From assembly GCF_000264995.1 (NCBI RefSeq), contig NW_006767451.1, forward strand, positions 22,807 through 86,806: DNA of 64,000 nt. Reading direction: 5' to 3'. The position numbers and the translations under genes are program-made. The stretch is from Punctularia strigosozonata HHB-11173 SS5 (Eukaryota > Basidiomycota > Agaricomycetes > Corticiales > Punctulariaceae). Under the pieces are notes generated by a model. That model did not search any database. It was not told the origin of the DNA and saw only the letters and a program-made list of their open reading frames with translations. Below are positions 6,070 through 63,172 of this stretch, one piece after another (the stretch's first letter is position 1; every line of letters begins with the position of its first letter).

Positions 6070-8047
6070 ATGTCCCTCTCTGCCTCCTCGTCTTCCAGCG
6101 TTCTCCGTCGTGCCGCCGCTGCCGTCAAGCCTGTGCTTGCTCGCGGTGCGCACAAGGAAATCAAGTTCTCGAACGACGGACGCGCGAGCATCCTCAAGGG
6201 TGTCGATGTTCTTGCCGACGCGGTCAGCGTTACGCTTGGGCCCAAGGGTACGTCCAATGGCCAATTGGCTTTTATTGAGTTCGCTCAACATCGCGTTGCA
6301 GGCCGGAATGTGATCATCGAGCAGTCATTCGGCGGCCCGAAAATCACGAAGGGTACGTGTGCTTGCGGTTCCACTCAGACCTTTCGAGTAACTTATATAT
6401 CGTTTCATAGATGGTGTTACTGTCGCGAAGTCAATACAGCTCAAGGACAAGTTCGAGAACCTTGGTGCTCGGTGAGCTCCCCCATCCGTTATTGGTAATG
6501 AGGTTGGGAGTGTTCATCACTTCCGCTTCAGGCTTGTACAGGACGTTGCTCAAAAGACCAATGAGATCGCCGGTGACGGTACGACGACTGCGACTGTTCT
6601 TGCGCGCGCCATCTACTCGGAAGGTGTGAAGAACGTCGCCGCCGGTTGCAACCCTATGGACCTCCGCCGCGGTTCGCAGGCCGCCGTGGACCGCGTCGTC
6701 GCGTTCCTCTCCGAGAACGCGAAGCCGATCACTACCACCTCTGAGATTGCGCAGGTGGCGACCATCTCCGCGAACGGCGATACCCACGTGGGCGGTCTCA
6801 TTGCACAGGCGATGGAGAAGGTCGGAAAGGAGGGTGTGATCACCGTGAAGGAGGGCAAGACGATCGAGGATGAGATCGAAATCACGGAGGGCATGCGCTT
6901 CGACCGTGGTTTCATCTCTCCTTACTTCATTACGGATGTGAAGACGCAGAAGGTCGAATTTGAGAAGCCGTTGATCCTCCTCGCGGAGAAGAAGATCTCG
7001 TAGGTCTCCGTTTATACGACTCGCTGATCTTCCGGCTAATATTCTGTTAGTGTTCTCGCCGACCTCATGCCCTCCCTTGAAGCCGCTGTGTCGCAGCGCC
7101 GTCCTCTGCTCATCATCGCGGAGGATGTTGACGGAGAAGCCCTTGCCGCGCTCATTGTCAACAAGCTCCGTGGCCAGCTCCAGGTCGCCGCCGTCAAGGC
7201 TCCCGGCTTCGGTGACAACCGCAAGAACATCCTTGGCGATATCGCTATCCTTACTGGCGGCACTGTCTTCACGGATGAGGTCGACGTCAAGCTCGATGCT
7301 GCGACCCCTGACATGCTCGGATCCACGGGTAGCGTGACTATCACCAAGGAGGATACCATCATCCTCAATGGCGATGGCGGCAAGGACGCCATCCAGGCTC
7401 GCTGCGAGCAGATCCGCGGCGTGATCTCTGACCCCACCACCAGCGACTACGACAAGACCAAGCTCCAGGAGCGCCTTGCCAAGCTCTCCGGCGGTGTTGC
7501 CGTCATCAAGGTCGGTGGCGCTAGCGAAGTCGAGGTCGGCGAGAAGAAGGATCGCTACGACGACGCGCTCAACGCGACCCGCGCGGCCGTCGAGGAGGGT
7601 ATCCTTCCCGGTGGCGGTGTTGCGCTGCTTAAGGCGTCCCTCGCGCTCGCGACCAACTCCCCTGCGGCTGGCGCGTCCACCTCCTCACCTGTCTCACCCG
7701 ACGCGAAGCCGATCGCTACGGCGAACTTTGATCAGGACCTCGGCGTCTCCATCGTCCGCCGCGCGCTCACCCATCCCTCGCGAACGATCCTGAAGAACGC
7801 CGGCGAAGAATCCAGCGTGATCGTCGGCACCCTGCTCCAGCAGTACGGCGCCAAGGACAAGTTTGAGTGGGGATACGACGCCAGCCGTGGCGAGTACGTC
7901 GACATGATCAAGGCCGGCATCGTCGACCCGCTGAAGGTCGTGAGGACGGCGTTGGTTGATGCTGCCGGCGTCGCCAGCTTGTTGACCACGAGTGAGGCGT
8001 GCGTCGTCGAGGCTCCCGAGGAGAAGGCCCCAGCGGCACCGATGGGT

Positions 8048-8080
<33 letters not shown>

Positions 8081-8086
8081 TATTAG
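6070..8086 (+). CDS. HSP60: Mitochondrial chaperonin HSP60
   Basis: Five exons (6070-6247, 6302-6352, 6411-6471, 6532-6999, 7051-8086) give about 597 residues, the usual group I chaperonin length with a presequence. The N-terminus is rich in Ser, Ala and Arg ([20 protein letters not shown]), a matrix-targeting signal ending before [14 protein letters not shown]. Signature blocks are [17 protein letters not shown], the ATPase loop [26 protein letters not shown], and the C-terminal [13 protein letters not shown] tail. HSP60 assembles into heptameric rings that fold imported proteins in the matrix. A perfect heat shock element lies about 100 bases upstream, so heat induction is likely. The protein runs from presequence to GGM tail without a break. 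Assignment is secure. Confidence 0.97.
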
Positions 8087-10974: not shown

Positions 10975-12049
10975 ATGCACAGTCACCATAGTCATTCCGG
11001 CCAGTTCTGTGCTCATGCGAAGGGCAACCTGGAAGACGTCGTTCGAGAAGCCATTGCTCAGGGCTTCGTGGTGTACGGCCTAACTGAGCATGTCCCGCGT
11101 TACAGGGACGTCGACCTTTACCCTGAGGAGGTGCGATGATTTACATGGTCTCAGCTGCAGTAGACTAAATGCTATGCCTCTTCAGCGCGACCTCTGGATA
11201 TCGATAGATGACCTAGAAGAACGATTCCGTTCGTTCCTGCACGAAGCTTGGCGTCTCAAAGCGCAGTATGCGTCGCAAATCACTCTACTCGTCGGTCTTG
11301 AAACTGAATCGATATCCCCGATCGACCTCGAGCAACTGGATGCGCTACTTGAAAGGCACGCCGGTCAAATAGACTACATTGTCGGATCCGTCCACCACGT
11401 TAACGAGATCCCTATCGACTTCGACTTCGCCACATACGAACGCTGCTTGGATTCGTTCACGTCTGCTGAGGTTACATCTAATCATGAGCGACTAGCGAGG
11501 TATCTGCTCGAGTACTTCAAATCGCAACATACGCTGTTGGAGCGCTTCAAACCGGCCGTTGTGGGCCATTTCGATCTGTGCCGCCTTTACACGCCGGACG
11601 TTCGCATATCTGACTTTCCGGACGCCTATGCCCAGATGGAGGCCAACATCGCGCTTGCAATCGGATATGGGGCCCTCTTTGAGGTCAACGCTGCGGCGTT
11701 CAGAAAAGGGTGGGAAGACGCGTATCCGGGCACGGACGTTGTTGAGGCATGCACATCACTTGGATGCGTCTCTATCATACCACTGATGCTTGCACAGGTC
11801 ATTTTGAGACATGGCGGTCGATTTTGCCTGTCGGACGACTCGCATGGCCCACACGCGGTGGGGTTGAATTACCATCGTATACCGGCTTACCTTGCGCGCG
11901 CCGGCGTCACCGAGCTCTGGGCGCTCCAGCCCGCTATATCCTCCGAAGGCGATGTGCAGCCACGGTCTTCCGTTCATGCCATGCAGGTGACGGATTGGCA
12001 ATCATGGCCGTCGTGGGCCTTGAACCGACCAGTCACAGTGACGGCGTAA
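10975..12049 (+). CDS. HIS2: Histidinol-phosphatase, PHP type
   Basis: Exon 1 is 10975-11130 and exon 2 starts at 11186. The PHP metal-site motifs are present in order: MHSHHSHSGQFCAHA, GLTEHVPRY, VGLETES, DYIVGSVHHV, VVGHFDLCRL and LSDDSHGPHA. The enzyme removes phosphate from histidinol phosphate, the penultimate stage of histidine synthesis, in the cytosol. Length is about 322 residues if an intron at 11747-11797 is removed. That intron would have a GC donor (GAG|gcatgc) and a cag acceptor and is a multiple of three, so the frame stays open either way. Removing it gives DVVEVILRHGGRF, which fits the family better than the 17 extra residues. Position in histidine synthesis is family knowledge; the intron is my inference. 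Confidence 0.88.
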
Positions 12050-12913
12050 GGTGTACGTCATATTCGTACACGATGCAGTACTTGGCGATCATCCGCGATG
12101 CAGTCGGTTTCGTGCGTCTCGTCGATTGAGGGAAAGGTTCTGTATGACGGGTAGTGCAAGAGTGGATCTGCGCGCTACCTTGCTCCGCTGGCAGCGGTAC
12201 TCATGCTCGTCGTATGCAGTAACTTGATCACTTAGTACTCCTAAACAGAGCATCGTGCTTACAGTAAGCGAGAATCCTAAAGCGCTGCTGGCGCTAGCAG
12301 GTAGTATATGGGGTTAACTGGTTAAGTAACGATTCTGATTTCGAACGGAAGGTAGGTCACTATGTTGCCTGACGACGTCCGTACCGCCGATGCTACTGTA
12401 GCTTAACTACCGTGAGTGCGTACGCTTGAGATCCAAGAACCACCTCCGGATCGATCTCACCGCATATAGCTTTGACAGCCTGCGACGCCTCTCGCAATCC
12501 ATAGCAGCGAGCCATAGTGACGGTCAATACCAGGCACTATTACGAGTGGATAACCTGACCGTTCGGATTCAAGGCAATTAAGGGAGTCAACACTCACCGC
12601 GGCTGTGGGATCTGTCTTGCACTCGGACGGTTTCAACAACAGTTCTGCATACTGTATCTCTCGCAAAGCAAAACCCAAGCTGTGCGACTGCGCCGTCGAA
12701 CCCGGAAACGTCACGTACCCGTGTATCCCGTTGGCCTAGGAACGCAATCAGGGCTAGGCAATCCACAGCAAAGATACGTGGGTGCCATCTAGGCGCCGGC
12801 GCTCATCTGGAGGATATGTACAGGCTATCAGCACCTTTCGTTCCTCAGCCGCGCTTGCAGGCCTTTTCGTTCCCTTCTGCCGCTAGGTTGGTACCCTGGT
12901 GGTAGCCTCTGTG
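12050..12913. other. Intergenic region with a possible orphan exon
   Basis: No complete gene is recognised. On the plus strand, about 12603-12739 reads as an exon-like frame ending in a stop: it includes SDGFNNSSAYCISRK and then KLCDCAVEPGNVTYPC, with four cysteines and three possible N-glycosylation sites. It looks like the tail of a small secreted protein. I could not find a start or signal peptide that splices to it. Confidence 0.25.
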
Positions 12914-15900
12914 ATGTCTTTCGTTCACGTCGGCGGGGCTGACAAGACCGTGATGCAAGATGATCCCGCTTCACCCGTACTCCTCACTTGGGGTGCGTCG
13001 CTGACCCTCATCAGTGCCTCATATTGCTCACATGTCTTCCGTTAGATCTCGCAGATCAGATTCTTCGTATTTGCGACGTATCGGGCGTGTCTCCCCCTCA
13101 GTATCAGGCCCTAGAAGATGGCATAGCTGTGGACCGCCCTCACAATCAGTCCTTGATCAACGACCTTCACAGCGTACGTGCATTGCCAATTTGATGTGCC
13201 AGGTTGTCTGATTACATGATGGCTTGACTCAGTATTTGCTGGAAGTAAACGGATCGGGACAACATGCCTCATTGGCTCATCCTCCGAGGCGACGCGTCGC
13301 CCGTATCATCGAGAAACTCGTCTTCTCTAGCCAATGCTTACCGACATCGTTGTTCAAGACCGAAGTGACCCTCTGCGATCGGGAGCCATTCAAAGGCGGC
13401 GCTTTTGGAGATATCTTCAGAGCCTCGTTCGAAGGTCGGCTCGTTGCACTCAAAAGACTGCGCGTGTTCGCTGGAGACGAAAACCCGGAAAGATTCACTC
13501 CTGTCGGTAAACATCCATCGCACCTGAACGTTCCGCTGCTAACTCGGCGTAGGAGTTTTGTCATGAGGCCATACTATGGCAGCGTCTCAGACATAAGAAT
13601 GTTCTGCCGTTCCTCGGCATAGATAACACCTCTTTCAGCCCGCATCTGTGCATGATGTCGCCATGGATGAGGAACGGCAACGTTCTTGATTATATACGCG
13701 CGGCTCGGCCAGGGTACGTTGACGTAGTACGGCTGGTGAGCTAACGATGTCGTCAGTTTCATTATATCCGTATATTGACACAGATGTAGCTCGCCGAGAT
13801 TGCGGAAGGACTCGCCTATCTCCACAGCGAGCATGTTATCCATGGTGATGTTCGCGGGGTGAGTCTTGATACCTTCTCTTCATTGATCACATTTTCATCT
13901 CTTCACAGGTGAATGTGCTGGTAGACGATCAGGGTCATGCTATGCTGGCAGATTTTGGCCTAGCCAAGATATCCAGCAATACAGCGACCGCGCATACCAC
14001 TAAAGGGCACGGCGCGCCCAACTGGCTTTCACCCGAACTGCTGCAGCCAAAGGAGGGGTTCCATCGCACGACTGCGAGCGACGTCTATTCTTTGGCATGC
14101 CTTGGCCTAGAGGTGATTCCACGTCTCGTATTTTCATGATCAGGGGCCAAAACAGACTTCCTCTAGCTGTTCACAGGGAAGCCACCTTTCGCGGACATCA
14201 GGCCACCAGTCAATGTCGCGCTGATGGTACTCAAAGGGGAGCAACCTAAACGGCCAAGGATGAGTGAGTGTTTCCGAGGCGTCCGGCTTCGGACCAAGCT
14301 CTGGACCCTCCTTTGTGAGTGCTGGAAGGCCGACCCGAGCGAACGGCCGTCTACGGAGGTCATAGTGGCCCGCCTATCTGATATGGTCGTCGAAGCCGAG
14401 GAATCCCAGAGCATCCGCACGTTATCGCGTCGGTCGAAGTCGATGGTGTCCATGGCCAGCTCCAATCGCTCACGGAAGGCGCCGCGGTCGAAACTTGGGG
14501 TCCAAGATACCTTGTGGTCTGTCCTTCCAGCTGCTCTGCGCAAGTACAAGATTACGGACTCGTGGCGCAATTGGGCGATGTTCATTGTCTACGGCCCTAC
14601 GGGTATGCCGTTCTCCCTATGATTGAACTTTCATCGTTACCAACGTGTCATGTCAGGGAAACGCGTCGAACGTTGCCTCAATCTGAACGACAAACCTTTG
14701 ATGCTCTTTTACGACCTGAAAGCGCGTGGTGAAGATCCGGTCTTCATGCTCAGGCACATGAAGGACATCGATTCCCCGATCACCATCGCGTCCCGGAAGA
14801 AGTCGGGCAATGAAGATGCTCAGTACGACTTGATGCCCTTGACTCCACAAGATATTGGGGTAACTTGAGCCTTCTCCTCCTCTAGGCGTAAGTTTGATGG
14901 ATCCCACAGGTTCCCGTGTCCTCATTGGTTGGATTCAATGTGGGAGGAGATCTGTCTGCCGAGCCGAGCACACCCATGCTCGGCGACAGCTTCAGCACGA
15001 ATAGTTCGCCACCGTGCTTCGCCGACACGATTGTCGAGTCGCCTCAAGCCGAGTCTCCGTCGCGCGACCCATCAACGCGACTCTCCCCAGTCGATTCTAT
15101 CGCGAATCGTAGGCTGGGCGTCGCGATCTCGTACGCAATCGCCATCTTTCCAAACACGGCGGAGAACGAAGGCGAGCTCGACGTTGCAGTCGGCGGCGCG
15201 TTCGTCGTGTTTCCACAATCGTCGTCGTGGTGGATCGCGCAGCGAGATGCCACCGGGAAGGGCATCTTCGACGGGGGCGATGCAAAGCAGGGCTGGGTGC
15301 CAGCGGGCTGCTTTTTGACGCTGAGCGTGCCAGTAGCGACAGCGGTCGCGGAGGCGCGAGAGCGGCGATCTCCTGGGCGCTCGGGCCGGTCGTCGTCCTC
15401 TCTTGCGAGGACGGGCTTGACGAATGACCCGATACTGCCGATGAGGATCGAATCGAAGTGCTTGCCCGGGGTGATACTAGAGGACTATAAGAAACGCGAG
15501 GCGCATGAGTTGGAGGTGGCGAGGGATACGGCTGTGCTGATATATAAGCGATACGGTCACTGGTCGTATGCGGTCAAGCTAGTATCTGGCGAGCGTGGAT
15601 GGCTTCCGGTCAGTTTTTACACAACATTGGAGTATAGACGGAAATGATTGACTTCCTCCTTCCAGTCATGGTACATAGGGAAAGTGACCGTGGAAGGCCA
15701 ACGTAACGGCGATGCGTCGCTGACTTTGCCCCTTACTCCGAGAATCCAGGGAGGCGACGATGAGGACGGGTACTGGGACGTGATTGACTGGCAGATGCCC
15801 GTCGTCCCGAGCACGCCACTCTTCGTCGAATCATCCGTCGCCCCCATCGTCGGGAGCACGCGCTCTGCGGCCTCGTCGCGAATCATTGTAACGGGAAAGG

Positions 15901-16034
15901 AGAACCTGAAGGCGGAGGTGACGCGCACGGCGCGGGTTGCGAAGAGAGCAGTGCTCGTGCCGAGCGCGAAGAGCACGAGGAAAGCTAGGAGGGAGTTTTC
16001 GATCACTTCTGCGCAGGTGTTGTTGAGTGCTTGA
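12914..16034 (+). CDS. Fusion protein: tyrosine-kinase-like kinase, Ras-association domain, two SH3 domains
   Basis: Ten exons (12914-12992, 13046-13173, 13233-13502, 13553-13735, 13790-13858, 13909-14112, 14167-14602, 14657-14859, 14910-15608, 15666-16034) give about 879 residues. Residues ~115-385 form a kinase of the agaricomycete TKL type: glycine loop KGGAFGDIF, VALKRL lysine, catalytic loop VIHGDVRGVNVLV with HGD instead of HRD, DFG, and WLSPEL. Residues ~419-495 form a Ras-association domain (RNWAMFIVYGP, ERCLNLNDKPLMLF, PVFMLRHMKDI). Two SH3 domains follow (~590-655, ending KQGWVPAGCF, and ~720-770, ending GERGWLPSWYIGKV). RA-SH3-SH3 is the C-terminal layout of basidiomycete Ste50/Ubc2 MAP-kinase adaptors, where a SAM domain stands in place of the kinase. 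The kinase end and the RA start lie in one uninterrupted exon, 14167-14602. The exon 3 donor (13503, gtcggt) is weak. Confidence 0.8.
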
Positions 16035-16586
16035 GTGCGATGTATCGGGGGAGTATAAATATGTTGTAATTCAGCAGCGTGTATAGTCCTAGTTCGTTTG
16101 CGTCAACTGAGTAACGTCTCTGGTCTGTATCAGTATCATCGTGCTGCAATCCACCTGGAAGTTGCAGCATCGGGAGTGTCAGAGAACAAGCTTAAGTGTG
16201 TCCGACGAAGAGGGCCCGGGGGCGACGGCGGCAAATCCCGTGGTCGCTGCCCGCCGCTCACGTGCCCGTCGCGCCCTTGTATCGTGCGCCACAAGCTAGC
16301 CGACGCTACGCCCTTGTTCTGCGCGACGACGGCGACGACGAACGACCATCGCGACGACAACGCTCACGGCATTCACCACGTCGCCCAGTACTGCGAGCAC
16401 CAGGATCAGATGAGCCATCGAGCGCCACCACGTGCGTGACTCGTGTTCAGGCGTTTGCTAGTTCACGCTACAGGACTTGACAAGGCGTTTGCGAATCACA
16501 GGCCGAATAAATATCTGTACAAGCACGAACTATATACGCAATCGACACGAATACACCATCATATGAAAGCCAGTAACGCAGCTCGT
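16035..16586. other. Intergenic region between two plus-strand genes
   Basis: No gene is supported. A plus-strand frame at 16196-16480 is arginine-rich, lacks family similarity and is probably GC-driven. The last part holds the promoter and leader of the WDDDF-motif gene. Confidence 0.4.
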
Positions 16587-19500
16587 ATGACCGGTCAGTC
16601 GCAAAGCTCTTGCTTGCCATGCATCGTAGTGCTCATACGCGTCACACGTAGCACCAGAAGAAAATTGGGACGACGACTTCGTATTTCAACAGCAAGATCA
16701 CCACAGAGCACAACCTCACACTCCTTCGCGTACCCGCACCGTCGTCACTAGCCCCGCCTTACGGCCACCTCCTCATTCCGCGTCATCTTCGAATCCTCCC
16801 TCGCCGGCCCGTCCGTCTCCTTCGTCTCGGCGCACGAACCTATCCAGACAATCGCAGCTGAACGACTGGGCCGAACATCCAGGACATATCACGCCATCAG
16901 GTTCATCCGGCCGCGCCGCCTCTACGCCTACCGAGAACTGGGACGACGATTTCGAGGACAATCCGGATTCCCCGCCTCAAGGGACCAAATCCCGTCGACA
17001 AAATCCTGGAACTCCATCAACTTCTAGGGTTGCGAAATCTACCACCTCTCCCAATGCCCGAACCACCTCGCCGCCCATCGAGAACTGGGACGACTCCTTC
17101 CGCGATTCGCCCATCGGCAAAGCCCAGCGTCCGCGTCTGAACGCGTCATGGGGTTCGTCAGATGACGACCTTGAATTAGGTTTTGCCGACAAGGAGGAGG
17201 ACAGGACCGTCACTGCTCGCTCGCGCCGTAACATGGTGGCACGCTCCTCCCCGCCGCCACCTGTACCGCCACTCCCCATCTCCTTCACCGCGCACACATC
17301 CGACCCTGCCACACACGGCATTGAAGCCTCCATCCTCTCTGGCTCCTCTGACCAGCCCACCTTCCCGCGCTCCCCCTCCACCTCTGTCTTCTCCATCCCG
17401 CTCTCGTCTACGACCGGCCGCGACTCGGCCCAATACGGATCTGAAGCGCATCTGAACCTCAGGCGCACTACGTCCGAGTCGTCCTCCCCCTTCGTGCCGC
17501 CTGCCCAGCCGCGATACGAGCGTGAACGCCGTCGTTTACGTAAGAAGAGTCGTCCGCAGAATCCGGGGCCAGACATCTTCGAGATGATGGAAGTGCCCGA
17601 ACCTGCCGTCTTGCGCAAGAAAACGCGCCCAGGTCCAGGGCCAAGTAACGGCAATCTCTCCCCGTCTGACGCGTCCGAGGACCCACCGCACGCGCATTCG
17701 GCCGTTGCACCCTCCACGCCGGAGCGCGAACGCGCCACGAGCCCTGCGCCAGGCGCGATCGATATCACCGCGACGCCCGCGTCGAAGACGCCTATCCTGT
17801 CCCGCATCGGATCCGTCAAGAAATGGGGCACCCGCAAGAAGCGCGCGAGCACGACGCCCTCTGAGCTGACGTCGCCTCACCGGCCGCTCTCGCGCGCGTA
17901 CCGAACCGACGAAGACGACGAGGGCGACGGAGGTATGGAGGCGACCCCGCGCCCACCGAGCTCTGTCGCGGGCTCCCCGCCGGGCGCGCACGGCCGCGGC
18001 TGGTTTTTTCGCGCTGGTGGCGGGGCTGGGCCCGCGTCTCCGCCACCGGCAACCCGGACGCACGCGCTCGGCGCGGGTGGTAGCAGCCGCAGCGCCAGCG
18101 GCGGGTCTTCGGGCGCGGACGCCCCGGGAGCGCTGAGGCGGGAGACCAGTCTGGACCGCATGCGGCATCTGCTGGGCGGCCTGGGGTCGCCGATGAAGGG
18201 GAAAGGGAAGGCGGCGGAAAAGGAGAGGGAGGGCGGGAAGGGGAGGGAGAGCTATGGATATCTGAGGAGGCATTCGAAAGGGAGGAGTGTGGTTGGCACT
18301 GGAGAGGGAAGGGAGAGCAGGGCGAGCTCTAGGGCAAGCACGCGGGCGAGCATGGAAGGTACGAGCGACAGCCATGCACTCCCGTACGTCCTGCCGCCGA
18401 TCCCGCCCAGCCCCTCGCTGCTCCCGAGACAGCCGAGTAAAGGGCGGAGCACGCCGATCCCGCGTCATGCGTCGTACACGTCAACGCCCCGCAAAGACGC
18501 GGACGAAGCGATGGGCCGCAAACAGAAGAAGCGGAGCGCGTCGAGCAAGTCGGCGCTCGTGAGTGGGAGCGAGTATTCGCACGACGAGGAGGCGCTGGCG
18601 TCGGGCAGGAAGGAGGGCAAGTTTTTGAACCGGGTGAGGAGGATCAGCCTCGTGGGCCGGCACAAGTCGTCGAAGAGCATCTCGACTCATCGAGACGCTC
18701 CGGAGGACCGGAATGCGCGCGTATCCCTTACTGACCCCAGGGAGCGCGTTGGCCAGATACCGATGATGCCTGCCTCCCAGCTCAAGACGCCGGAACAGAA
18801 AGAGCAGCTCTTGCCACCCATCGAGCTTCAGCCTCCTTCACCCCCAGATCGGAACAGCGAGCGAAGTCGCCTTACCGCATCCTCTTCCGAACCTGCTCCT
18901 TCCGTGTCTTTCGAAGCTTTTGGCACCGATCCGATCCACAACACGACGCAGCGTGCAAAGTCGCCGATGTCCATTATCAAAGCGCCCGGCTCGCCAACGC
19001 ATTACGCATCTCTTGGGCGCTCGACCCCGGTTTCTGCCATCACGGGGACGGCGTCTAACGTCCCGAGGCGGAACTCGTTGGGCGACCTCAAGATCCCGGC
19101 AAGGATCAGTCAGGCGCAAGTAGGTCTCAGGCGCGACTTGGGGATGGTGAGGGAGTTTGCGGCTAGCGTCGAAGGTCGGTCAAGCTGCCTATGATCCCAA
19201 TTACCGCTGTGTTCAATATTCTCTCCAATAGCCCTTAAGAGTCTTCAGGACGCCTATCGTGCCCTTGTGCGCGAAGTCCAAGCCATACTGGAGACTCCCG
19301 AATCGCCGTCCCGCGCTACCTCTCCTACAACTGGCTTCCGTATCGGGCGCCGTCGCGCACGTTCGAATGCCAACCCTCCGACGGCGCCAGAACAGACGCA
19401 CAAGGAGCTCGCGAACGCATTCGGCACGATCGACTCCAAGTATCGCATCGCTTGGGAATGCGCCGAGCTACTTATCGAGCTTGGCGGCGGTCCGCCTGCC

Positions 19501-20919
19501 CCGGCTGCGGCTCCACCTTCTAGCGTTTCCGCCCCTGCTGATATGCACGCACATGCTCAGGGGCAGGCAGCAACGGATGGGCAGAAGAAGGGGAGGGAGA
19601 GAGCGATCACTCTCGCGGGCGATGACCGAGGATCGAAGCCACCTACTCCAACGTTCAATGGCCCGCCGGCTGCTATTGTTCCTCCTCCTTCATGGCGGGC
19701 ATCTACTGGGCGACATGACCTTAGTCAGCGACAGCTGCTCCTTCTTCGCGACATGCTCCAAAGCTCAGAAGGCTCCTCCTTGAGCCCGCCGATCTCGTCG
19801 ACCCCCGTTATGGAGGAGCCCGTCGTCAATCGGGCGTGGAGGTGGGGAGACGCCATGAACAGCACAATCACTCTGCCGTCGGAGGAGGGAAATTCGGTGT
19901 CTGTGCCGTCGCCGTTGAGGAAGCAGCGCAGCCACCGCTTGGGTATGCGTGGGTTCAGGGACATGCTCAAGTCCCTCCGAAAGGGAGTCGTAGAGCATCA
20001 GCATCAACAACCGACCCTTCCGCTGCCTTCGCCAGAGCACATACGTGATCATGCGCAGCTACCAGGGCGGCGTCGGGCGAAGACAAGCTCAGGTCCGGAC
20101 ACCGTCCATTCCAACAGTTTGCGCTCGCCATATGGCACTCAAGTTTCGCTTTCCAACCACAAGTCCTCTCCGCGTCGCCCCTCGCTCGCATCTATCTTCC
20201 GGCTCGGACAACGCAGCAAGTCGAACGCGGGCGGGGGTAGCTCTGACAATATGGCGAGCACGCGGAGCGCCAGCAGCCACTCTGCGCAGGCCAGCACGTC
20301 GTCAGAGGAGGAGGACTGGGATCGGATGGACTCGGCGAGCGACATGGACACCGCAGCCGAGGCGTTGCATATGAGCGGAGACGGCACGGGCACGGTTAAG
20401 ATGATGTCACACGGGAAACGGCCCCGGAGGCCGCCAATCCTTGTTCCAACCGGATCCGGATCGAGGACGGACGTCAGCTCAGAGGGTGCAGCCAAATCCG
20501 GCCGCTCGGCATCGACAACGCCCGTCTCGGCGATGGCGAGCGCGTCGAGATCGAGCATCTGGGACGAATCGCAGTCGTCGCATCATTCGCAAGGTCAGGC
20601 GCGAACGACGCGGCTGTCCAACGTCGACGAACGGGACGAGCACGATCGGGAGCGACGTGGGCTCACGCCTCGCAAACCCAAGAGCAAGGCCCGGCCAGGG
20701 ACCGAGCCTGTTCCAAGCTTGCCGTCTCATTCTGGCTCGGTGCGGTCCGTGCCCCCGCCGTCGGCGCATTCGGCGGACAACGTCGGGTTCGCGCTGGCAA
20801 TGACGCCGGAGAATATCAAGCCGCTGTTGGATAACGCGCGGGAGGTGCAGGCACGGCTGCAGGACTGCGTAGGCGAGGTGAAGACGCTACTTCAAGCGCG
20901 GAACCAACGGCCCTCTTGA
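16587..20919 (+). CDS. Large low-complexity protein with WDDDF motifs, function unknown
   Basis: Three exons are proposed: a 7-base first coding exon 16587-16593 (ATGACCG), 16652-19174, and 19232-20919, giving about 1405 residues. The protein opens with PEENWDDDFVF, and the motif recurs as TENWDDDFED and IENWDDSF within the first ~160 residues. The body is mostly disordered, rich in Ser, Pro and Arg, with basic patches such as SRIGSVKKWGTRKKR. Exon 3 has an ordered part: a helix LKSLQDAYRALVREVQ and the block IDSKYRIAWECAELLIEL, then a C-terminal helix near EVQARLQDCVGEVKTLL. WDDDF motifs occur in regulators of the septation and mitotic-exit network such as Byr4/Bfa1, but I do not see the C-terminal Byr4 signature. 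Call it a probable scaffold of unknown role. The start rests on the spliced 7-base exon. Confidence 0.65.
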
Positions 20920-31000: not shown

Positions 31001-31145
31001 GCGTTCGCTCACTGCCTCTTATTCTTGGTTATAATGCCGTTCTGATCGAATCTGTAGCTGGGAACATCATACTTGTGAGTTTCTGGCTTGAGTCTTGGAA
31101 AAACCGGATGTGATCTATACTCATATTGGCGAAAGGCATGCAGCT
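28050..31145. other. Gene-poor stretch of 3.1 kb
   Basis: I can support no protein gene. Frames on both strands (for example 28861-29385 + against 28809-29318 -, and 29935-30318 -) overlap each other, use TTG starts or lack splice partners, and match no family I recognise. Near 28158 a TATA-like GAATATAAG on the minus strand lies about 110 bases before the protease start and may be its core promoter. Small genes or noncoding transcripts cannot be excluded. Confidence 0.35.
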
Positions 31146-31218
31146 GCCTGCTTGGCTAAGTGGCTACGGCGTCGCACTTGTAATGCGAAGATCACTCGTT
31201 CAAATCGGGTAGTAGGCA
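31146..31218 (+). tRNA. tRNA-Thr (anticodon UGU)
   Basis: The 73 bases fold as a cloverleaf. The acceptor stem GCCTGCT pairs with AGTAGGC including one G-T. The D arm pairs GCT with GGC. The anticodon stem TCGCA/TGCGA encloses CTTGTAA, giving anticodon TGT. The T arm ACTCG/CGGGT encloses TTCAAAT. Discriminator base A follows, with no intron. A T5 run follows five bases later as a polymerase III terminator. Confidence 0.93.
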
Positions 31219-31222
31219 TTCA

Positions 31223-35484: not shown

Positions 35485-36191
35485 AGTGCGTGCGGAAAAG
35501 TCAAAACAGGCTCGACGGATGTCTTCTGGGTGGTAGTTTCAATATCCAAGAAGCCGCGCTCAGAATATAAAGGGCTCTTCGCAATGTGCGTAGCCCCTAG
35601 ATCGGGGACCCTCGGGAGGCAATATCAGACCATACAGCGTAGCCCATAGCTGAGTCATTCCAGAGCGGGTCTAAAGTAGTCTCCCCAGACAGCCTCTAGA
35701 GTGAGAAGACAATCGTTCTCACAATAGAGTCTGCAACTCGACGCGCCCCTCCGAGTAAGCTGGCGCATTTGTGATGACGCTGACGTGATGCACCGATCTT
35801 AAGGTCTTTTTGCCGCCGGATTAGGCAGGTGTCGCGGCTGTGTGCCCCTGTGACGTAGCCTTCTGCGCACCCCGCGCAAGTGCATACGTCGCCTTTTGCA
35901 TCTCCCCACCATCGCTTTGCGTACCTCGCATGAAGTTACGACGAAATGCGACGATATAACAGCTGCAACTTCTGGTATTGTGCATATGGACACCCTCTCG
36001 CATCGATCCAGCCTATTCACGCCCGGGCGCGACTACTCAGGTCATCCATACATGCGTCATTATATCCGTCTTGCCCTACGGCTACTTGTTCCGCACCCAA
36101 ATAGTCGCTTCCCGCCTTAGTATCCGACGATCGACTTGTCTTGTACAATATTAGTATGGGCAATCAATATGGATGATGCTCGATTCACGAC
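35485..36191. other. Intergenic region left of the DUF6589/RecQ unit
   Basis: No gene is supported. This stretch would contain the left end of the candidate mobile unit and the promoters of two divergent genes. I found no convincing terminal inverted repeat by eye. Confidence 0.35.
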
Positions 36192-39100
36192 ATGGACGAT
36201 GCGGGACATAGTACGCCTGCTGAAACCACCGATGAAGCCTCACCGTTCTTTGACCCTCAGCTTGCCGCAACTCCGTATGCATGGAATACTCCATCTCAGG
36301 ATGTATTGAACACTCCATTTCATCAGCCCAGTACCGGTTCATCTCACCGCCTCCAACAGGGTCCGGAATCCGAACTCGATTCGGTCTTCAGCGTGCCTGT
36401 AGATCACAGCTTCAGTTTTGCAACTGCAACGCCGCGGCGCTTACTCTCCCAGACATTTGAAAACCGACACCACCCTGAAGAATTTCCCGACCGCCTTACG
36501 TCTACACCCTTACGTCCAACCCAATCAACCCCGGCCATTTTCAGCACACGCGCATACAATCGTCGGCCCACAAATATGGAGAGGTTAGAGCAAGTTCTGG
36601 ACCTTCTACGAAAACTCGACTGGACGGCAGGAGACTTCATGTACTACTTTGTCCGCAACAAGGCCAAGGGAGATCCCGATCGCAGTCTGCGGCATGGGAG
36701 GATGCGCTCAAACTTCCTCTCCGGTTCTGGCAGCAAATCCCGCCATTTCTCTGATATCCTTGAGGCTATCTGGACGGCCGACGATGGTCTTCCTCCACCT
36801 GAAGACAAGGAACGGTCGTTGAGCTTCTCATACACTGCCGAATTCTCCGACATCGGTTACGCCCGACCAGCCCTCTCGACGTTTGCTGTACGGATTGTCC
36901 GGGAGGAACTCAAGAGAGAACGCAACTCTGCAGTCAAGACATCGAGCGGGCTTCACACATTGGTAAAATCTGGACACGGTGCTACAGAGACCACTTGGGA
37001 GCATCTCACCGCCAGTACTATCGCCGGTGCATCGCGGATACTTCGTGCCCATCAGCCCCTCACCTGGAATTTCATCGAGGACCTATCGACACCCAAGTCT
37101 CGTGGTTCTAACGTTATCGTACAGTATCGGTATCGGCCTCCCGCAATAGTACGTCGAGCTTCACATCCCGCTCAGGATTGTTATAACACCATGCTGCAGG
37201 CTACAGCGCATGTCTTGAGCTTCATCAATTTCACTCACAACTCTCACGCGAAGCTCCTTCCCCTTCTGCTTGGGATCTTCTTCTTCTCATGCCGGGCAAA
37301 CCGCGAGCTATTTGCACTTGGAAGCCGTGTTGGACTGATCACAAGCTACACTGGCACCATTCTCGCACTCCGACGGATGGCCGCCTACGCTGCCAAACAT
37401 ATCAAGGAGCTTGGTACCAGTCCCGTCTCGGCTCTTGCGCTTCTCATTGACAACACCCAAAGCTACGCCCGCGCACGCTCTATGAGGATGGGCACCACCG
37501 ACAGGATGATTGTTGGAACAGCAGCAACTGCGTATGAGCTCGAAGATTGTGATTTGCAGGCCCTAGATCTCGACGACAAGCTTGCACGCATAGCCGAGAA
37601 TAAACGGAAGGACTTCACTGTGGAGAAGCTTGTGCGGATGACCGACATGGACTTGATTCAGAAGGCATGCTCGATGCAGTGGCTCCAGATTCTCATCCGC
37701 TATATTCCGGAGCTTTCTTCCCGGTACAAGGACGAGGCTGCTCAGGAATACGACAAGATCGTGGCTCCACATCGTCCGAGAAAAATACGCAAAACCAAAA
37801 CACATCCTCTCGCTCCTAATGGCCGCAACGAATCGGTCACTTCTGAATTACTTCTTGGTCTCAAGCACTTCCTCTCTCAACTTGGTCATACCGAAGACGA
37901 CCAGCTAAGACGCCTGATTCCTGTCGGCGGAGACGGCCTAACCTACGAGAGACTGGTGCAGCTGAAGAAGTACATGCAGCTTCATCCTGAAGCGGCTCAA
38001 CGGATGGATCACATCGAACCATTCCTCCAACTATGGCACACTGCGTGGACGGATGTTAGCCGTATCTTTGAGTCTCACTGGGATAGTGATCTCTCAGACG
38101 ACCCTTCTTCCCTTGGTCACAGTGCCACCAAGATTGGGCGCAAGGCGCCTTCAAACCTGAAAAAGGTTGACTACTATCCCGCAATCGATACCGCATACTT
38201 GGTATTAGATGTTCGCGTCCTAGATTGCTGGAGGTATGTGACTCTATAACCGCTTTTCCGCACGTTTACACAGTCTTCTCAGGCTTCACTTTGGTACCGA
38301 GGATCTGTTCTTGTACTTTACCAAATTAGAAGAACAAGACAAGATCCCCTCATTTGAGTCCCTGCTCTCTGCGGCATCGACATTATGGGGGCGCTATGCG
38401 TCTCCTCGATCTTTCATCAAAGTATTCCGTGGAGGAAGCAACGAAACTAGTCACGGAAACATCCCTCACGGATCCCCGTGGCAGTCCCCACAGATGCCTA
38501 CAGCCGATCACATCTCTGAACCTCGTGGAGAGTCTAGCAAGCCAAAGCGGCAGGCGAAGAAGAAGGAGTGGGAGGCTGATGCGGACCGTCCACATCCGCA
38601 AGGTGATACAGCATGTGGAAGGTCTATGCGGTTTCTCTGGGATGCATCTATATCACGCGAAATGGCAATGGCAACTGCTGCTGGAGCGATTGGAATTGTG
38701 TACGAGTGCGTGAAGGTATGCGCACATATCACATCCCGTACACATGTATACTGATACCCATGCCTTAGCTTCTACTATTGAGCTTTGCCGGCTCGACACA
38801 TACAAAATACGCGGTATATCTCCTTGAAATGATCTGCAACCATGAGGACGAGAGCAGTACGGCACTCCAACAGTTGATGCTCAACAACTGGCTGGTCAAT
38901 CCAAGCGGAGAATCGGGCCGTTGGATGGAAGGTGATCTCTACCAGGAGCACCTGAATGGTCTCCTCGAGCAGCATAATTCGAAGAATCATGACTTTGACT
39001 CCAAACACATGCAGGAAACGGTTGGGCGCAACATCGCACATTTCTATGACTTACAGCGTGAAATGCGGGAAGGTGCACAGCTCAAGCCACGAGGATGGAA

Positions 39101-39500
39101 ACACACCAATCCCCACACACGCCCAGAGGTCCGGACCCTACTTGACATCTACAAGACAACGGAACTGCACACGTTCAGACCGGGAAGGTCATACGAACGT
39201 CATGGCCGAGAGGTGAACGATCTGGAGCGCGGAATGAGGATGCTTCGTGAAACCAAGATACCCGCTTGGATTCATGATACATTCCGAGGACGAGACATTG
39301 CAGAGGGAAAGCTTACCTTTTCAGTGGAGCCATCCCAACGTCAAGATATCGTGGACGATTTGGAAGCACTGGAAGATGAGTACATACCACAGACAGCAGG
39401 ACGGCTCATTGTACGTGATGGTGAGTTGTTTGTTGAGATTGATGATAGTGGATTGGAAGAGGAGGTTGTCGAAGAGATAGATGGAGAAGTAGATACGTAG
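36192..39500 (+). CDS. DUF6589-family protein, possible transposase
   Basis: Three exons (36192-38233, 38283-38715, 38769-39500) give about 1068 residues. The first ~120 are disordered (Ser, Thr, Pro rich). The conserved DUF6589 blocks then appear: LALLIDNTQSYARARSMRMG, GTAATAYELEDCD, GDGLTYERLVQLKKYMQLHP, LWHTAWTDVSRIFESHW, SSLGHSATKIGRKAPSNLKK and DTAYLVLDVRVLDCWR. After the introns come SISREMAMATAAG, FAGSTHTKYAVYLLEMICN and LYQEHLNGLLEQHNSKNHDF. The repeated conserved Asp residues inside hydrophobic strands resemble an RNase-H-like transposase core, which is my inference; the family is officially of unknown function. The C-terminus is acidic. It converges on the RecQ-type gene. The frame is intact, so it may be active or recently so. 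Confidence 0.82.
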
Positions 39501-61373: not shown

Positions 61374-63172
61374 TCATTGCTGTTTCGCTGCCTCGACGGC
61401 GGCATGGACCTGCTCATCCACTTGCTTGTCCGCTACCTCTCCAAACGGCTCTTTCGGTACCATCGTTGCCGCGCCCACCGCTCCGCCATCGGCCGGTAGC
61501 GCCTGCTGTGCGTTCTTACCCTTCCCGGGCGGTGGCGGATGGTATACCTTTTTGGGCTGTGGTATGATTCAGCACAGCGCTATCATCAGGACCGGGTTGT
61601 GAAACATGATAATGAAAGAAGACCGCCGCACCTTCTTCTTCCCTTCCGGCTTCGCGTTGGGGTCCGGGTACGCGAGCTTGGTCACCTCCTGCCACTCGGG
61701 GTCGGCCTCGTACGCCTGCCGTATCGGCGCGAGCAGGCTGACGATCGCCTCCGCGACGGCCTTCTTGAGGTCGCCCGGGTGCAGCCTCTTCGCCGCGAAC
61801 TCGTCCCTCATCTCGTCGAACGACTTGTAATGGCTCGGCCCGCCCCACTTCTCGTCCCGGTGGACGGTGAACACCGTACCGTCCGGCGCGCCCTCCCCCA
61901 CGAACGGCTTCCGCGCCTCCTCCTCTCGCACGTCGTCGTCGGCCTCCGCGCCCTCTTCGACGTGTCCGAGCGACTCGCCCCGGAGCCGCGCGAGGCGGAG
62001 CTCGCTGATGGGGATGAGCACGGCCTGGACGAAGGAGAGCACGCCGTTCTCGGCGACGTTGCCCTCCTCGCAGAAGGCGGCCTTGATCTTCTTCCGGACG
62101 AGCTCGGGCGGGTCGAGGAAGTCGATCTTCGAGTTCGGGTCCGAGGACGACATCTTGCCGCCCGCGAGGCCGGGCACCATCGCGTTCATCAGGTGCGCGC
62201 GTTTTTTGTAGCCGAGCCGGGGGAGGTAGAGCTCCGCGAAGGTGAAGATCTTTCTCTGTCGGGTGTGATACGCGGCATGAGCGACAGGGGATTGCGGTGA
62301 TGGAAATGAAGAGGGAGCAGAAGGGAGGAGGAGGGGGAGAACCTGTTTATGAGTGACACGCACCTGATCGACGCCGCCGAATTGGAAGTCGCAGCCGAGG
62401 TACTCCTCGTCGAGCGCCTGCAGGCCGGGGTAGAGCAGACCGCTCAGAAGCGGGCTCTCGACCTGCTTCACGACCTCCGCGCCCGCCTTCTTCGCGTCGT
62501 GCTCGGTCACGGTCGCGCAGAGTCGGTAGTTGTCGAGGTTGTACTCCTTCGTGAGCTGGTAGGAAGAGCCTTCGACGAAGCGCAGTTTGGAGGTCGGGAT
62601 GCCGAGCGAGCGGAAGACGGCGACGAGGACGAGCTTGTAGTATTTGACGCGGTACGCGACGAGCTCGAAGGGTGCTTTCAAGTTGTCGAGGAAGGCGTGG
62701 ATGTCTATCGGGCGAAGGGAGGGAGGGGGGAGTGGAAGGAGGGCGTTAGTCGAGGGATTTGAGATGGATCATCTGGATATGGTGCGGACCTGCAAGAAGG
62801 ACAGTGACCTGCGATTGGACCCGTCAGCGGATGGATGCGAGACACGGGTGAAAGCGACGGACCTCGACTCCGGCGCGCAAAAAGTCAGCGATCTTGGTCA
62901 ACGGGACGAAGTAGCCCAGGTGTGCTAACGGCGAGTCGGTCGTCAAGCGTCACGAATATCGAGCACGGCTTACGACGACCGGTAGGAGCAGTACCTGACT
63001 TGTTTCTGGTAAATTACCCCGCGCCGGACACGAGCAGCAGGATCCGCTCACCCCAGTAACATTTCGGCGTCCTCCCCTCAGCAAGGATGGCCTTGATCAG
63101 GTCCCCGCCCAGCACCTCCTGCAGCCTCCGGGTTATCAGCTCATATTTCGCATCTGCCGCTGCGGTCGCCAT
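61374..63172 (-). CDS. TYS1: Cytoplasmic tyrosyl-tRNA synthetase
   Basis: Minus-strand gene with about seven exons. Exon 1 (from 63172) starts [20 protein letters not shown] and ends in TPKCYWG. The class I signature is spliced as [18 protein letters not shown], with the HIGH-like motif, then [20 protein letters not shown]. The large exon 62681-62346 gives [20 protein letters not shown] and [20 protein letters not shown], the tyrosine pocket. The next has the KMSKS-type loop [15 protein letters not shown]. The last exon ([15 protein letters not shown]) has an Ala-rich, low-complexity C-terminal extension. The enzyme charges tRNA-Tyr with tyrosine in the cytosol. Archaeal/eukaryotic-type sequence, no mitochondrial presequence. 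The intron between exons at about 62250-62340 was placed by conservation ([17 protein letters not shown]). All key residues are intact. Confidence 0.93.

Follow-up and report, generated by a model that had tools for sequence, protein, structure and literature searches.

A predicted gene of Punctularia strigosozonata places a kinase domain ahead of a Ste50/Ubc2-like RA-SH3-SH3 module

The locus described here raises a question of architecture: does a single gene of Punctularia strigosozonata join a protein kinase to a Ras-association (RA) domain and two SH3 domains, the set carried by the Ste50/Ubc2 adaptors, and what might such an enzyme do? We analyzed a window of 64,000 nucleotides (contig NW_006767451.1, positions 22,807 to 86,806), within which the gene occupies positions 12914-16034 of the + strand. 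With introns placed by hand, this region resolves into ten exons and an uninterrupted predicted frame of 879 amino acids, the 2640 coding bases being open across all ten. The initial annotation had claimed the order kinase-RA-SH3-SH3; that order, and the strand and coordinates of the parts, are borne out by splicing and Pfam:

12914..13352, + strand: N-terminal region encoded by exons 1-2 plus part of exon 3, residues 1-109; neither SAM nor any other domain recognized
12993-13045 and 13174-13232, + strand: introns of the N-terminal region
13395..14376, + strand: protein kinase domain, residues 124-381; PF07714 E 4.4e-39, PF00069 E 2.5e-36
13503-13552, 13736-13789, 13859-13908 and 14113-14166, + strand: introns inside the kinase domain
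13395-13418 (GGAFGDIF loop), from 13443 (VALK), from 13951 (DFG) and within 14014-14037 (SPE): kinase motifs
13841-13914, + strand: kinase motif HGDVRGVN, spanning intron 5
14377..14502, + strand: basic, Ser-rich linker, residues 382-423; entirely within exon 7; the kinase-RA join
14503..14760, + strand: Ras-association domain, residues 424-491; PF00788; contains intron 14603-14656
15138..15269, + strand: first SH3 domain; PF00018 at residues 601-644; its GWVP motif extends to 15302
15429..15446, + strand: PILPMR, residues 698-703, from a motif search; between the SH3 domains
15468..15683, + strand: second SH3 domain, residues 711-763; PF00018 at 716-758, PF07653 at 711-758 (below cut-off)
15609-15665, + strand: intron in the second SH3 domain, separating GWLP from SWY
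15684..16034, + strand: C-terminal tail and stop codon; no significant domain match, the best being LEM at E 1.1

All nine introns are GT-AG and 50-59 nt long, with a mixed set of donors (GTGCGT, GTACGT, GTCGGT, GTGAGC, GTGAGT, GTGATT, GTATGC, GTAACT and GTCAGT). Intron 3 (13503-13552, 50 nt) is the one of which we are least sure, its donor GTCGGT (13503-13508) being an unusual, non-consensus form. Enumeration gave 23 frame-keeping solutions for this intron, six of which retain both the lysine of VALK and the glutamate of HEA; two of those six are shorter than 60 nt (50 and 53 nt), and both use GTCGGT. A consensus-like GTAAAC lies four bases downstream of that donor, and its use breaks the frame. 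GTC donors are uncommon forms, and that of intron 9 (GTCAGT, 15609-15614) resembles the one at intron 3. For intron 4, where 11 solutions preserve the frame, the 54-nt intron with the donor GTGAGC was selected as retaining the most kinase sequence. Three earlier trial splices were ruled out by stops inside exons, which arose because introns 3 and 4 required different donors: the trials had used GTAAAC, or a donor one base off, in intron 3, or had ended exon 4 wrongly. Since the final model was picked by openness of frame and likeness to a kinase, it is not in itself independent evidence for a kinase. A codon model was trained on nine long frames elsewhere in the window, of which five have a Pfam match; for every one of the ten exons it favors the frame of the gene model. 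A tblastn search of the window uncovered no second copy of the protein (best match outside the gene, E 2.1), and Rfam gave no match at the gathering score over 11000-18000.

The gene stands among others of varied character. Its upstream neighbor (11084-12046, + strand) carries a PHP domain (PF02811, E 3.6e-6) and is possibly a histidinol-phosphatase-type enzyme. Just downstream is a large Ser/Pro-rich frame (16630-19194) whose residues 818-848 match the Etd1 septation-protein family (PF20162; 31.5 bits against a cut-off of 27.5, E 2.5e-7), and the frame after it (19195-20916) matched nothing in Pfam at E<=0.001. Further along the + strand, a DUF6589 protein lies in two pieces, 36177-38246 and 38769-39497 (PF20231, E 1.6e-59 and 9.1e-36). 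Ordinary genes of the window include a TCP-1/cpn60 chaperonin frame (7040-8083, + strand), a tRNA-Thr gene (31145-31219, + strand) and a Trp/Tyr-type tRNA synthetase frame (61572-62768, - strand).

The case for one gene rather than two had been built on the kinase end and the RA start sharing an open exon, and this held on inspection: exon 7 (14167-14602) contains both the kinase end (VIVARLSDMV, to 14388) and the RA start (14503) and reads through with zero stops. Runs of 80 codons without a stop are no rarity in the window (1651 of 9109 sampled stretches), so the argument lies in the absence of a kinase-frame stop before the RA domain, together with the coding score on both sides. That score prefers the model frame in six of the seven sub-windows of exon 7, the last of which extends into intron 7, while in the linker sub-window 14407-14526 the model frame has 6.6 bits vs 7.5 for another frame. 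A very improbable alternative is that the locus encodes two proteins, with transcripts that stop in or just after the kinase part, as at the TGA (14620-14622) of a retained intron 7, and with a free RA-SH3-SH3 protein translated from an internal start in exon 7 such as MVSM. Retention of intron 7 does open that stop (ORF 14167-14622), the exon 7 linker does hold in-frame Met codons, and the linker sub-window without a preference for the model frame is what this reading would expect; the spliced frame is nevertheless free of stops between the domains, and exon 8 carries the RA domain on in phase with exon 7. The exon structure supports a single continuous predicted gene model bearing all of the domains, and a shorter product terminating at the retained-intron TGA is possible alongside it.

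The domains were recognized with unequal margins. In Pfam searches of the whole protein, the families on which the proposed architecture depends (PF07714/PF00069, PF00788 and PF00018) all pass their cut-offs: PK_Tyr_Ser-Thr scores 134.8 bits against 23.1, RA 26.0 bits against 21 (E 1.5e-5), and SH3_1 33.2 bits against 22.9 over two stretches (E 3.9e-8). When scanned singly, the first SH3 domain passes the SH3_1 cut-off of 22.9 with 24.9 bits, and the second, at 22.6, falls short by 0.3; the SH3_9 and SH3_2 models both score below their own cut-offs in the whole protein. The RA match improves to E 8.5e-7 in a 141-aa piece that includes 40 residues of the upstream linker, yet it covers positions 26-91 of the 93-position profile with or without those residues. 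Sequence searches of the PDB returned weak matches for the SH3 domains (best E 0.0085, a Fyn fusion) and none at E up to 10 for the RA domain, and single-sequence fold predictions were of low confidence (mean pLDDT 38.8 for the RA piece and 31.9 for the SH3 piece) and lend neither fold structural confirmation. Of the NCBIfam models, 17 families appeared at E<=0.01, all scoring far under their cut-offs.

What kind of kinase is this? The catalytic lysine (VALK), the HGD aspartate with its subsequent asparagine, DFG and SPE are all kept, so the kinase is expected to be catalytically active. Weighing on the other side, HGD stands in place of HRD, a non-RD form that is usual in mushroom kinases. 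Against the PDB, the kinase part gave 1612 sequence matches at E up to 1e-10; among the best 60, which were inspected, the top single-domain matches were B-Raf (98.6 bits) and CTR1 (96.0 bits), both of which we take to be TKL kinases. An EGFR chain heads these 60 (121.7 bits) because it contains the kinase twice (58.9 and 60.7 bits). Motifs of tyrosine kinases are wanting: the catalytic loop reads DVRGVN rather than AARN, APNWLSPE lacks the TK proline before the tryptophan, and the GXR(L/M) motif reads GEQP, with Q in place of R at the third position and proline at the fourth. The absence of AARN, the absence of the TK-specific proline and a proline at the fourth GXR(L/M) place are the criteria given for FslK, a fungi-specific kinase lineage described as expanded in Agaricomycetes, for which exact functions were said to await experimental determination (PMC3937382). 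A complete kinase domain with catalytic motifs and a best score against the Tyr/Ser-Thr model are further points in common, and the likeness to FslK is one of motifs. The closest single kinase domains in the PDB (best 60 of 1612) are TKL. Most FslK members consist of the kinase domain by itself, unlike the protein described here; extra domains are tabulated for 16 of 241 (Table S3 of PMC3937382). Assignment to the TKL/TK type is thereby supported at the level of motifs and profiles, and within that type we describe the kinase as FslK-like.

The remainder of the protein has a different affinity. The stretch VLPAALRKYKI...RCLNLNDKPL...PVFMLRH of the RA region is, we presume, close to Ste50-type RA domains, and the C-terminal half as a whole resembles the RA-SH3-SH3 portion of basidiomycete Ste50/Ubc2, a putative kinship judged from domain order rather than from an alignment. 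Ubc2 is described as having SAM and RA domains and a C-terminal pair of SH3 domains; SAM and RA are reported as essential for filamentous growth and the SH3 pair as needed for pathogenesis, with SAM binding the MAPKKK Kpp4 (PMC7409079, PMC7766764, PMC9530204). An RA domain followed by two C-terminal SH3 domains, as in Ustilago maydis Ubc2 and Sporisorium SsUbc2, is also the order in which Pfam arranges the domains here. Between the SH3 domains, PILPMR is the sole PxxPx[RK] or [RK]xxPxxP motif of the whole protein; it is class-II-like and could conceivably serve as an internal SH3 ligand or clamp.

Unlike in the Ubc2/Ste50 adaptors, a catalytic domain occupies the place of SAM, and the part through which those adaptors bind a MAPKKK is missing. 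The placement of a kinase in the SAM position, as initially annotated, was upheld by scans in which residues 1-120 matched no Pfam family, SAM included, at E up to 10, and in which SAM was absent from the five scanned of 22 upstream or overlapping frame pieces (at least 20 aa each), HMMER filters being apt to discard weak matches. Those five pieces matched just PGC7_Stella (E 0.16) and a DUF3860-like family (E 0.072) at E<=10, both below cut-off. With a kinase, and with no SAM domain that the scans could find, the protein is not a Ste50.

On balance we lean towards an explanation in which an FslK-like kinase, fused to a Ste50/Ubc2-like RA-SH3-SH3 module, is recruited to the sites of the adaptor. 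The gene would have arisen by fusion, a Ste50/Ubc2-like gene contributing its 3' part and a kinase gene the rest. In the product, the RA and SH3 domains would dock the kinase on proline-rich partners and on a partner at the membrane, either a Ras- or Rho-family GTPase or an anchor comparable to Opy2, which anchors yeast Ste50. There the kinase may phosphorylate proteins at places where the adaptor would normally assemble the MAP-kinase cascade. With no SAM domain, a MAPKKK would not be held as Ste50 holds it; the protein would more likely be a side input, parallel to the cascade or upstream of it, than a replacement for the adaptor.

The initial annotation also suggested direct control of the kinase by Ras. 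The RA domain itself was recognized, and the link to Ras is the weaker part of that claim, since profile positions 1-25 are unmatched and the N-terminal part of RA domains is among the regions involved in Ras contacts. An intermolecular beta sheet has been proposed as the central recognition region of Ras effectors, with N-terminal residues of RA domains contributing to the contacts (PMC5147862). We do not claim that the first two strands are lost: the upstream sequence supplies the 25 residues needed, and these might fold as a divergent hairpin. In a less probable reading that nonetheless deserves weight, the gene is a single fusion whose RA domain is an atypical module, as in yeast Ste50, with an Opy2-like tail or a MAPKK as its partner in place of Ras-type GTPases, and the kinase is localized constitutively, with no GTP switch. 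It draws on the late start of the RA match, on the yeast Ste50 RA domain, termed atypical in a cited title and described as a binder of Opy2 (PMC13233613), and on UvSte50, the RA domain of which also binds UvSte7 (PMC9503583). The same source considers that RA domain essential for binding UvRas2, cites binding of Ras1 and Ras2 by yeast Ste50, and has Ubc2 binding Ste11 orthologues and Ras (PMC9503583); moreover, the 25 residues preceding the RA match could contain a divergent beta hairpin, and Cryptococcus seems to be without Opy2-like proteins (PMC6288190). As this reading overlaps with recruitment of the fused kinase to adaptor sites, the likelihoods of the two should not be added. Candidate partners are thus GTPases of the Ras or Rho type, an anchor in the membrane and a MAPKK.

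The kinase-RA-SH3-SH3 order is, provisionally, undescribed. No such protein appeared in titles or abstract openings among the matches listed, a body of literature that leaves subscription papers mostly outside and so does not prove absence, and in the main text of a paper on fungal kinases and their domains the terms SH3, RA domain and Ras association never occur (PMC2838846). Searches of DNA collections yielded three pattern matches of the RA piece to viral contigs and six of residues 1-524 to prokaryote genomes, none of them confirmed, in collections not meant for fungi. This lack of relatives, from sources that say little about fungi, and the use of GTCGGT at intron 3 in the face of a nearby consensus-like but out-of-frame donor are what might be expected of a recent chimera limited to this species that lacks a selected function or is on its way to decay, the intron 3 donor being perhaps an early lesion. 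We regard such a chimera as improbable, given that the ten exons are open over their full coding length and that the catalytic motifs examined and the GWVP and GWLP ends of the SH3 domains are retained. Recruitment of a fused kinase to adaptor sites, the explanation we prefer, carries a wider implication. Mushroom fungi have many FslK kinases, and a Ste50/Ubc2-like module would hint at the partner and location of one member; if the fusion recurs, it would illustrate how an adaptor built on SAM can be turned into an enzyme.

A Ras-controlled kinase would not be new in the mating pathway, since Mst11 is already described as binding Ras through its own Ras-association domain (PMC5854419). Like Mst11 of Magnaporthe, which belongs to the pathway of Ste50, the predicted protein has its kinase and Ras-association domains on a single chain; unlike in Mst11, the RA domain (424-491) lies C-terminal to a kinase of TKL/TK type (124-381) and is accompanied by two SH3 domains. 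In Ste11-type MAPKKKs, such as Mst11 and Byr2 of S. pombe, the binding domains precede a kinase of MAPKKK type. Animal Raf and mixed-lineage kinases couple a TKL kinase to a GTPase-binding module (the RBD of Raf, the CRIB of MLK), and MLK also has an SH3 domain. The Punctularia protein is similar in pairing a TKL-like kinase with a module of GTPase-binding type and, as in MLK, with SH3, and differs in the order and kind of its domains; common descent with the Raf/MLK architecture is not suggested. We would more tentatively entertain, as an unlikely but coherent extension, that the RA-SH3-SH3 portion of Ste50/Ubc2 was acquired by an FslK-like kinase in some of the mushroom-forming fungi, yielding a dedicated GTPase-gated kinase of the mating MAPK pathway, an independently built fungal counterpart of Raf- or MLK-like signaling.
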